Positions 18,600 to 41,330 of a stretch of 64,000 nt of DNA are shown here, in pieces; the first letter of the stretch is position 1; every line of letters starts with the position of its first letter. Origin of the DNA: Turicibacter sanguinis. GTDB taxonomy: Bacteria; Bacillota_I; Bacilli_A; MOL361; Turicibacteraceae. The notes beneath the pieces were generated by a model. The model was given only the letters and a program-made list of their open reading frames with translations, was not told where the DNA came from and did not search any database. The position numbers and the translations under genes are program-made. The DNA lies in NCBI RefSeq assembly GCF_013046825.1, contig NZ_CP053187.1, positions 279,501-343,500 on the forward strand. The letters run 5' to 3'.

Positions 18600-18775
18600 C
18601 TTTGATGAGTTAGAGGTGCATGGCTAAAGAGTAGGAATTTCGAGAGTGACGTCTAAGACAAATTCTAAAAGGTATCCATGCCGAAGTGAAAATAGTGTCC
18701 GCTATTTTTTGCTGGGGTTAGATTGAAGAAGTCTAACACTGTCACTGCCTATGGTAGTGGAGAACTAATGATCGG
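18600..18775 (+). ncRNA. Lysine riboswitch (L box) aptamer
   Basis: Conserved L-box pieces occur in order: AGAGGTGC (18612-18619), AGAGTAGG about 18629, GCCGAAG (18680-18686), the AAAATAGTG/CTATTTT arm, GCTGGGGTTAG with a TTAGA/TCTAA arm, then CACTGTCA-TGCC-TGGTAGTGGAGAACTA closing the junction. Spacing and order match the B. subtilis lysC leader. Lysine binding should favour the terminator at 18831-18870, so expression of the downstream transporter would fall when lysine is plentiful. Confidence 0.92.
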
Positions 18776-18870: not shown

Positions 18871-18932
18871 ATAACTTTCAGAGCCGGACGAGATGATTCA
18901 ATCAAAGTTCAATATAAAAGGAGAGAATGAAA

Positions 18933-20540
18933 ATGGTTGGAACCATCTATGCCTTAATTCCGGCAATCCTCACAATTCTTTTGGTTATCATCACACGTCG
19001 CGTTATCTTATCACTAGGAGTCGGTGTCATCTGTGCTGCTTTAATTTTATCAGCATTTAGCATCGGAGATACCATCTCAACCATACTCATCACTTTTAGT
19101 TCTCTAGTCATTGAAGAGGATGGACTTTACGGATTCTTAAATGAGTGGAATATGTCCATCATCTTCTTTTTAATCGCCCTAGGTATTATTACAGGCTATA
19201 TCGTCTTATCAGGAGGGGCCACTGCTTTTACAAAAGCCATTATTCGTCGCGTTCAAACACGCGAAGGGGTACAATATACCGCTGCTATTTTAGGAATTCT
19301 GATTTTTGTTGATGACTACTTCAACGCTTTAGTCGTTGGAAATGTCTCAAAACCATTAGCCGAAGCACAAAAAGTATCGCGAGCTCGTCTCGCTTATATC
19401 GTTGATTCAACGTCAGCACCTATTTGTGTCATTTCCCCCATTTCAAGTTGGGCAACTGGAATCATGGGTTCTATGGCTGTCATCTTAGCAGGAGCAGGCA
19501 TTTCTTACAGTGCCTTCTCAGCCTTCTTAATGACCATTCCTTATCATTTTTATGTCATCACAACCCTCATCATGGTCTTCGTTGTCATTCGCTTTAACTT
19601 AAATCTTGGATTAATGAAAAAATACGAAGCCGACACGTTACAAGGAAGCGACAGCTCAATTGTAGGCAGCGAACTATCGAATCCTCATGAAAAAGATGTT
19701 GAATCTTCAAAAGGAACGATTTGGGACTTAATTCTTCCTATTCTAACCTTAATTATTGTCACAGTTGGAACGATGGCTATCACCGGAATTCAAGGGGCAC
19801 AATCAGTCACTGATCCTGAGTTTAACTTCTTCTTCACCGTCCTTGACAACATCGCTCTCTCTAAAGCACTTCGTTATGGAGGAATGGCTGGATTAATCGT
19901 TTCAATGGGACTGGCTTATCGTCATGTTTTAAACAAAGAAGTCACACTACCTGATTTTTTAAAAGCTTTTATGATAGGAGCTCGCTCTATGTTTGGAGCG
20001 ATTGGAATTTTATTATTAGCTTGGGCGATTTGTGAACTAGTTGGAGCCTTAGATGCTGGAGGCTATTTAGCTTCAGTGATTACAAGCACCAATATTAATC
20101 CAAACTTTATTCCAGTTGTCATGTTTATAGTCGCAAGTTTTATGGCTTTCTCAACCGGAACATCTTGGGGATCATTCGGAATCTTACTTCCAATTGCGGG
20201 AAGTGTTGCCGCAGCCATCGACTTAAATCTGATGATACCGGTTATGGCTGCTGTCTTATCGGGTGCAATTTTTGGAGATCACGCGTCACCGATTTCAGAT
20301 ACAACCCTTCTATCAGCCACTGGGTCAGGTTGTGACCTCGGAGCTCACTTCAACTCCCAACTCCCTTACGCTCTATTATCAGCAGGTATCGCTGCCTTAG
20401 GCTATATGGCGTTTGGGGTGACAGGGACTTTAATGACGTCTTACATCGTCATGGCTTTAGGATTTGCTTTGGTAATTTTCTATGCTCGACGTCAAAACGT
20501 TAAGAAAGTTGAAAACCTACACTTAATGCCAAATGAATAA
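18933..20540 (+). CDS. NhaC-family Na+/H+ antiporter-like transporter, probable lysine transporter (LysW-type)
   Basis: About 12 membrane segments in 535 aa. Family signatures are IFVDDYFNALVVGNVSKPL and the later FSTGTSWGSFGILLPIAG and FGDHASPISDTTLLSATG. Members under an L box have been proposed to import lysine (LysW), and the lysine riboswitch directly upstream strongly supports this over plain Na+/H+ exchange. AAAGGAGAG is spaced for ATG 18933 (9 bp from GGAG) rather than ATG 18927 (3 bp). It is monocistronic, with a terminator at 20573-20620. Confidence 0.88.
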   Translation: MVGTIYALIPAILTILLVIITRRVILSLGVGVICAALILSAFSIGDTISTILITFSSLVIEEDGLYGFLNEWNMSIIFFLIALGIITGYIVLSGGATAFTKAIIRRVQTREGVQYTAAILGILIFVDDYFNALVVGNVSKPLAEAQKVSRARLAYIVDSTSAPICVISPISSWATGIMGSMAVILAGAGISYSAFSAFLMTIPYHFYVITTLIMVFVVIRFNLNLGLMKKYEADTLQGSDSSIVGSELSNPHEKDVESSKGTIWDLILPILTLIIVTVGTMAITGIQGAQSVTDPEFNFFFTVLDNIALSKALRYGGMAGLIVSMGLAYRHVLNKEVTLPDFLKAFMIGARSMFGAIGILLLAWAICELVGALDAGGYLASVITSTNINPNFIPVVMFIVASFMAFSTGTSWGSFGILLPIAGSVAAAIDLNLMIPVMAAVLSGAIFGDHASPISDTTLLSATGSGCDLGAHFNSQLPYALLSAGIAALGYMAFGVTGTLMTSYIVMALGFALVIFYARRQNVKKVENLHLMPNE

Positions 20541-20963: not shown

Positions 20964-21116
20964 ATGGAAAAAACAAAAACTTTCCAACTTACCGAAAGTC
21001 AATACAATCTAGTCGAAGAATTACTCGAAATCGCACCCGGTCATACCGAAGCTGAAAAACTCATTTCTGCTCTTGAACTTGCCGTCGAAGTCGGGGCTCA
21101 CACCGATATGTTTTAA
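20964..21116 (+). CDS. Small acidic protein, 50 aa, unknown function
   Basis: Begins MEKTKTFQLTESQYNLVEEL and ends HTDMF. It is mostly helical and acidic, without cysteines or membrane segment. RBS AAAAGGAGAG lies 8-10 bp upstream and an excellent terminator follows at once, so it is a real small gene with its own transcript. Family not recognised. Confidence 0.65.
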   Translation: MEKTKTFQLTESQYNLVEELLEIAPGHTEAEKLISALELAVEVGAHTDMF

Positions 21117-21182: not shown

Positions 21183-21430
21183 AGATGGGTCACCTAGCAT
21201 CTTATCCTCCGCTACTAGGCAATGGGTTACCTAGCGATTGGGACTAGCATCTTATCCTCCGCTACTAGGCAATGGGTTACCTAGCGATTGGGACTAGCAA
21301 TCTTCCCCTCCGCTACTAGGGAATGGGTCACCTAGCGATTGCTACTAGCAATCTTATCCTCCACTACTAGGGAATGGGTCACCTAGCGATTGCTACTAGC
21401 AATCTTATCCTCCACTACTAGGGAATGGGC
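21183..21430. repeat. Tandem repeat of 50-51 bp, about four and a half copies
   Basis: Units start near 21201, 21251, 21302, 21353 and 21404, each opening CTTATCCTCC (one CTTCCCCTCC) and containing CTACTAGG-AATGGGT-ACCTAGCGATTG. Later units hold the perfect dyad GATTGCTA-C-TAGCAATC. No spacers separate the units, so it is not CRISPR. No open frame crosses it. Copies differ at a few sites only, so the expansion is recent. Confidence 0.9.
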
Positions 21431-21448
21431 TCACACCTATGGTATTTG

Positions 21449-21846
21449 GCACCCCATTAGTGGAGAAAACCACTTCGTGGATGGGGTCCCCCTTGTTAGG
21501 ATAACTCGGCCTGACGCCGAGTACACCACAGGTGTATAGTTGTTCTATCCTTCACTTCGTTTAGGAAGAACAGCTAACATAGTAGCGCTAATCCATCATT
21601 CTGCTAAAATCTACACCTTCTATAAAAAAAGAGATAGACTCACGTCTATCTCAGCACTTGCATGGATAACTCCGCCTTTCAGTCTACTAAAAAATATATT
21701 TTCTATAAAAATACGATAGACTCTCGTCTATCGTGGCACTTGCATGGATAACTCCGCCAAAGGCGGAGTATAGTCCAACTAATTTTCGTAAAACGAAAAT
21801 AGTTGGGCTAACAAATAAACGGCCTGTGGGGGAACACAGACCGTTT
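21449..21846. repeat. Cluster of duplicated hairpin elements
   Basis: A 58-bp element (TTCTATAAAAA, 9-bp hairpin, GCACTTGCATGGATAACTCCGCC) occurs at 21619-21676 and 21701-21758. The hairpin arms are GAGATAGAC/GTCTATCTC in one and ACGATAGAC/GTCTATCGT in the other, so two pairs changed together. GGATAACTC plus a GC-rich hairpin recurs at 21499 (CGGC/GCCG) and 21744 (CCGCC/GGCGG), again with compensation, each followed by another hairpin and GCTAACA. Further hairpins sit at 21451-21486 and 21828-21845. Gene-free. Confidence 0.8.
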
Positions 21847-21983
21847 AGGGAGTGAGAAAACATAATGAATAAGAAAATCAAAGGGGGAGAAAATTTTTTA
21901 TCATTTTCATCCGTTTATATTATGACATATATTTATGTACGAATAATGAAAAGAGTATGTCTTTTTTGTGTTTTTTTGGGTTT

Positions 21984-41222: not shown

Positions 41223-41330
41223 TCAAACATCCCAAATAATTTTAGCTGGATTCCCTACATTCAAAAAGGTATCCTCCACTAGTCGAGCAATCCCTTATTA
41301 TAGCCTGATTCGCTATTAAATAAAATGAAA
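41223..41330 (-). pseudogene. Fragment of a hexapeptide-repeat acyltransferase
   Basis: Minus strand reads GIARLVEDTFLNVGNPAKII then WDV and stop at 41223, the usual C-terminal end of left-handed beta-helix O-acetyltransferases (GNPAK-I). Upstream, IANQAIIRD is in another frame, so at least one frameshift is present and the rest of the gene is missing. Confidence 0.4.

Follow-up and report, generated by a model that had tools for sequence, protein, structure and literature searches.

Two covarying hairpin repeat families, one of them mobile, at an intergenic locus of Turicibacter sanguinis

Introduction

The bacterial repeats that come closest to those described here are the REP sequences and BIMEs with their RAYT transposases, which are short, palindromic, and mostly extragenic, occur in many copies, stand singly or in arrays, and are supposed to be mobile hairpins (PMC3733652, PMC2817692). 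Among Firmicutes, the nearest counterpart is the BOX element of Streptococcus pneumoniae, one of the modular interspersed repeats, with a hairpin module that comes in variable tandem number (PMC3049150).

Here, we take up one intergenic region within a window of 64,000 nucleotides from Turicibacter sanguinis. A preliminary description had pointed to duplicated hairpins whose arms change together and had read them as a structured RNA or cruciform family. A literature search of partial coverage found no description of such repeats in Turicibacter. What are these hairpins, then, and how do their arms come to change in step?

Results

The region lies between a minus-strand polysaccharide deacetylase gene (Pfam) on its right and a small plus-strand ORF (20964-21116, 50 codons) on its left, and because the 3' end of the deacetylase gene faces that ORF, the locus is convergent. 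Its letters are all as first described. Read on both strands together with its flanks, it is a mosaic drawn from two families of structured repeats, which we call F1 and F2 (covariance models R1 and R2), and the stretch 21440-21860 folds as a single strand at -155 kcal/mol vs. -99 for shuffled sequence (z = -9.8, with 0 of 100 shuffles as good). Rfam, searched at gathering and relaxed thresholds with the region and with loci carrying F1 or F2, returned weak matches only and no credible match to either family; blastn of the region against a phage collection gave chance-level matches of about 25-32 bp, and the deacetylase protein as query found no match in the genome contig collection.

The 58-bp copies that first drew attention are parts of larger units, duplicated in tandem at 21596-21678 and 21679-21760 (83 and 82 bp; pairwise comparison, unstranded), within which 21625-21676 and 21707-21758 are 87% alike. 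Each copy holds a hairpin, C, which is GAGATAGAC..GTCTATCTC in copy 1 (21631-21652) and ACGATAGAC..GTCTATCGT in copy 2 (21713-21734). Two of its nine pairs differ between the copies, and both changes are compensated, just as had been claimed; a simple count, for four changes among 18 stem positions, puts the chance of such matching letters at ~0.0013. The next hairpin, too, changes in compensated fashion (CTCGGC/GCCGAG vs. CTCCGCC/GGCGGAG). On the minus strand, hairpin C runs directly into TTTTTTT in copy 1 and ATTTTT in copy 2, and in both, therefore, its 9-bp stem with an immediate T-run looks like a predicted intrinsic terminator; F1 and the F2 core, unlike intrinsic terminators, have no T-run directly after the stem. 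Both copies had also been said to end in a further hairpin and GCTAACA. Two such stretches do exist, but they are the F2 elements at 21491-21579 and 21737-21813, and the first copy does not end in a hairpin at all: it contains a partial F2 and stops within the F2 stem, in the GGATAACTCCGCC arm, without the 3' arm.

Next to the repeats, on the minus strand and 3' of the deacetylase gene, a block at 21816-21977 is conserved in the genus (83% in one congener). It is C-rich (TCTCCCCC, CTCCC), has a promoter-like start and terminator hairpins, one of them terminator-like at 21816-21847 (minus strand, downstream of the deacetylase gene), and is perhaps a small RNA. RsaE/RoxS was tried as its identity and rejected (27.6 bits against a cut-off of 79, with no match in three congeners). 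Elsewhere in the window, a lysine riboswitch (Rfam RF00168, 119 bits) at 18603-18775 stands upstream of a membrane-protein gene (18927-20540) whose product is probably a transporter, and a weak, degenerate F1-like match (16.1 bits) lies in the intergenic stretch 41247-41289 (minus strand).

In F1, some six pairs form the outer stem (CCCYA...TRGGG), there is a one-sided 5' bulge of about 12 nt with GAGGA (YARTGGAGGAWA), and an inner hairpin, whose sequence and length vary, is followed by GACCC or CCCC. On the complementary strand, the loop of the inner hairpin is often a GAA triloop (C-GAA-G), including GCGAAGC, an unusually stable DNA mini-hairpin. The window has five minus-strand copies across 21186-21425, one of them truncated, and a single plus-strand copy. 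The truncated one, its inner hairpin mostly lost, forms the end of the tandem array (21186-21221; R1 31.8 bits, E 1.7e-5); the others lie at 21223-21271 (36.9 bits), 21273-21323 (40.7 bits), and, as 51-nt units, 21324-21374 and 21375-21425 (62.2 bits each, the sequence of the former being part of the model). The plus-strand copy, CCCCAT[TAGTGGAGAAAA]CCAC-TTC-GTGG ATGGGG (21450-21492; 39.6 bits), is also part of the model.

With the best 150 candidates scored per genome, F1 has, at E<=0.1, 58 matches in this genome (G000), 57 in G001, 16 in G002, 47 in G003, and at least 145 in G004, as well as 20 in G006, from a sister genus; at that threshold, G005 and G007 have none. Across the class, 6 of 296 genomes match—five Turicibacter and the one from the sister genus—and the other 290 hold none. 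A strict F1 pattern run against the genome contig collection matched Turicibacter sp. UBA7094 and one Roseobacter MAG; matches in two viral contigs, at 16.5 bits or less, were taken as chance. F1 occurs on either strand, and 23 of its 25 clusters in this genome lie outside ORFs, the other two being inside genes that a family search identifies as ISL3-type transposases. The idea that copies always sit between convergent genes does not hold, with 7 of 24 scorable clusters so placed, compared with 6 of the window's 51 gene pairs (one-sided p = 0.066). The tandem units differ in their flanks, and no end modules common to them were seen. At another locus (L171 985-1377, G000:C1:454984-455376), four F1 copies at 114-nt spacing apparently share the same extra flank, forming a composite repeat in which about 63 nt accompany F1.

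Clean insertions of 44-54 bp demonstrate that F1 is mobile. In an ISL3 transposase gene, filled copies read GATTTAA, then TTACCC...GACCC, then AATG, and empty copies read GATTTAAAATG (site GATTTAA^AATG); the unit there measures 45 bp in G000 and G001, and in G003 it measures 54 bp and its stem differs. G003 also carries a 44-bp F1 at another position, GCTCC^CTCGG, in a second ISL3-type gene, of which the same genome has empty copies; with the gap counted, filled and empty copies share 91.8% identity across the 560 bp compared. At both sites the inserted unit ends TT(A)CCC...GACCC, and the filled/empty comparison reveals no target duplication. Insertion of 45 bp leaves the reading frame intact and lengthens the gene by 15 codons, and insertion of 44 bp causes a frameshift. 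One transposase-gene site thus has a 54-bp F1 in G003 (L239, L244) and a 45-bp F1 with another stem in G000 (L209), which may reflect repeated insertion at one site or the replacement of one copy by another. As for the array in the window, it is missing from the syntenic region of three congeners and must therefore have arrived or grown in this lineage or been lost in the others.

Could F1 simply be a set of REPs mobilized by a RAYT (Y1 tyrosine transposase)? Like REP and BIME sequences, it is short, palindromic, mostly extragenic, and single or arrayed, and its 58 matches at E<=0.1 amount to many extragenic imperfect palindromes; a RAYT origin would also suit the bulged hairpin, the mixture of tandem and dispersed copies, the lack of target duplication, and the Y1 genes present in G001, G002, G003, G004, and G006. 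Unlike REPs, however, F1 has no GTAG or CGTC tag at its unit ends, no REP-flanked Y1 gene, a large 12-nt one-sided GAGGA bulge, and head-to-tail arrays. Furthermore, its own genome, for all its 58 copies, gave no match to a Y1 transposase (Y1_Tnp), and of 12 Y1 loci in the relatives a single one has solid F1 matches, which lie over 1 kb away from the transposase gene. With neither the GTAG tag nor a flanked Y1 gene, F1 is therefore not filed as REP, and we regard a RAYT-driven family as quite unlikely. The Y1 genes themselves are unevenly spread, with seven equally scoring IS200-like ones in G003 (loci including L098, L102, L103, L105, and L107) and no match in G000.

The other comparisons are similarly mixed. 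F1 resembles BOX in being a structured, interspersed, intergenic Firmicute repeat with tandem hairpin modules and no clear target duplication, but, compared by description rather than by sequence, its arrays show no constant flanking A and C modules, and it moves alone as a 44-54-bp unit. Rickettsia palindromic elements (RPE) are palindromic units found inside protein genes, and F1 is like them in lying inside protein genes and, once, in frame, where it lengthens an ISL3 transposase; it is unlike them in being smaller and mostly intergenic and in shifting the frame at the second site. It is short, non-coding, and mobile, as MITEs are, but makes no target duplication and is thus not a classical MITE; its ends carry only the hairpin arms, and a non-exhaustive search found no IS matching them. 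On the whole, F1 works most like REP/BOX-type repeats.

F2 is built otherwise. On the minus strand it reads TGTTAG-hairpin A-CTATA-hairpin B-TTATCC, with the two hairpins adjacent. The complete copy at 21737-21813 (minus strand; R2 74.1 bits, in the model) has a positional counterpart in an F2 of the species G004; the copy at 21491-21579 (minus strand; R2 49.4 bits, E 3.3e-12, in the model in trimmed form) has an extra small hairpin, ACACC..GGTGT, between A and B. Hairpin C, which has its T-run in G004 as in the window, closes F2 downstream in both. F2 is rarer than F1, with about a dozen good matches in G000, a handful in G004, and one good match among three mostly weak ones in G001; the model search found none in G002 or G003, and the F2 pattern was too loose for the viral contigs, where it gave at least 120 chance-like matches.

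Where F2 stands may say something about what it does. It is often directly behind the T-tract of a terminator, or at the end of the purA gene, oriented like the unit upstream of it, and G000 and G004 share four F2 sites whose flanks are homologous: behind the conserved block beside the deacetylase gene (an sRNA-like locus), at the end of purA, behind the rpmF terminator, and behind a T-box terminator (T-box match by Rfam in G004), the names purA and rpmF coming from C-terminal sequence rather than a family search. At these orthologous sites the stems have turned over. Among the 58 alignable pairs, 22 differ between the species: in 15 both partners were replaced and pairing persists, in 5 a single partner was replaced with pairing intact, and 2 are unpaired in one species. 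Omission of the degenerate rpmF stem A and T-box stem B of G000 tilts this count in favor of pairing.

One explanation of such upkeep is function at the RNA level, in which F2 and hairpin C would be a transcribed 3'-UTR or read-through structure (a second terminator, an exonuclease block, or a bound RNA) whose stems are kept by selection on the RNA. The same-sense placement of several copies behind terminators or at the purA end, the T-run of hairpin C in two species, and the four sites kept with paired stems all speak for it. Against it, one-sided intermediates are few (5 vs. 15 double changes), no Rfam family matches, and F2 is thin or not found beyond two species; it is missing at the syntenic place in G001 and G003, and is therefore not needed there. 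We consider RNA-level selection possible but doubtful.

How general is the pairing? Among the 13 copies of the F1 seed, pairing holds in 93% of cells vs. 68% in shuffled and 34-45% in slid controls, and both partners vary at 10 of 13 pairs; in 37 distinct copies of this genome, mostly outside the model, 90% are paired vs. 70% shuffled and 32-52% slid, with a covariation score of 0.378 vs. 0.106. For F2, both partners vary at 8 of 15 pairs in the seed (7 rows); in a held-out set (nine loci, 11 rows) 93% of cells are paired, both partners vary at 10 of 15 pairs, and the score is 0.487 vs. 0.177. The second alignment of each family was fitted to the model, and such CM-fitted alignments lean towards structure; kinship of the copies likewise inflates the excess over shuffles. 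The slid controls retain that kinship, yet they fall short by a wide margin. Further copies thus have an excess of paired changes, and the original proposal that pairing rather than sequence is being kept stands, genome-wide and genus-wide, in seed, new, and held-out copies alike. Covariation exceeds both shuffled and slid controls in F1 and F2 and fits an RNA hairpin and a DNA hairpin equally.

Such numbers leave very little to chance hairpins in a neutral duplicated spacer. The two copies at the outset hold, by themselves, just two paired changes; the genus-wide models, the largely new copies, the slid and shuffled controls, and the fold z of -9.8 tell strongly against chance, and the 37-copy F1 test refutes it. 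We hold it to be extremely improbable.

A subtler possibility is mutational. Replication template switching in quasi-palindromes, a mechanism described for RNA genes (PMC8794818), rewrites one arm from the other and so yields pairing without any selected function. Neighboring pairs do change jointly (GA/TC to AC/GT in hairpin C; TCT to AAC at purA), double changes outnumber single ones, and of 418 F1 cells only 6 are G-U, with 371 Watson-Crick and 18 A-C. What it leaves unexplained is the constant sequence (the 12-nt bulge, the outer CCC/GGG pairs, CTATA/TTATCC) and the clean insertions, and as a full account we rate it a tentative one at best. An asymmetry of A-C and G-U, as a marker of which strand folds, disagrees between data sets.

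Discussion

The reading that we favor, and think reasonably probable, is that this locus is a pile-up of Turicibacter hairpin repeats between convergent genes, in which a mobile F1 has joined an older, settled F2. F1 inserts as one clean unit of 44-54 bp, without target duplication, and would multiply into head-to-tail arrays. We infer that it moves as a single-stranded hairpin recognized by its shape—bulge, stem length, and loop—and not by stem sequence, and under such recognition the stems would be free to drift so long as they stay paired. F2 would be the older structured element, settled directly behind terminators and gene ends and closed downstream, in the window and in G004, by the T-tailed hairpin that is the duplicated hairpin C; its pairing and that of hairpin C might be kept through action at transcription ends or by template switching that copies arm onto arm.

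This changes how the first reading should be worded. A structured family is real, but in F1 it is an insertion unit, found on either strand and with rare G-U pairs; "rather than neutral repeats" was too strong, since REP/BOX-type mobility or template switching also yields compensated changes. Structured RNA usually evolves via G-U pairs. The rarity of G-U in F1 and the excess of double over single changes in F2 therefore lean towards upkeep at the DNA level, by hairpin-DNA transposition or template switching, without proving it, while the orientation of F2 behind terminators and the T-run of hairpin C would still fit a role at transcription ends. One could go further and suppose that F1 is a minimal mobile element of 44-54 bp that has no form other than a DNA hairpin and whose enzyme, probably single-strand-acting, reads stem length and the 12-nt bulge rather than sequence, and that F2 stems, at sites that stay fixed, turn over by DNA-level copying, largely pair by pair and mostly without G-U intermediates; we offer this more specific version as speculation that is rather unlikely to hold in full.

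Small hairpin repeats are common in bacteria, but filled and empty sites that compare cleanly for such a short unit are useful, as are orthologous F2 sites with paired stem replacement. Together, the F1 sites and the F2 orthologues make the origin of covariation testable—selection on RNA, hairpin-DNA transposition, or template switching—and that question is important, since many accept covariation as proof of a functional RNA. For Turicibacter itself, a common gut genus, these repeats would account for part of the intergenic DNA.
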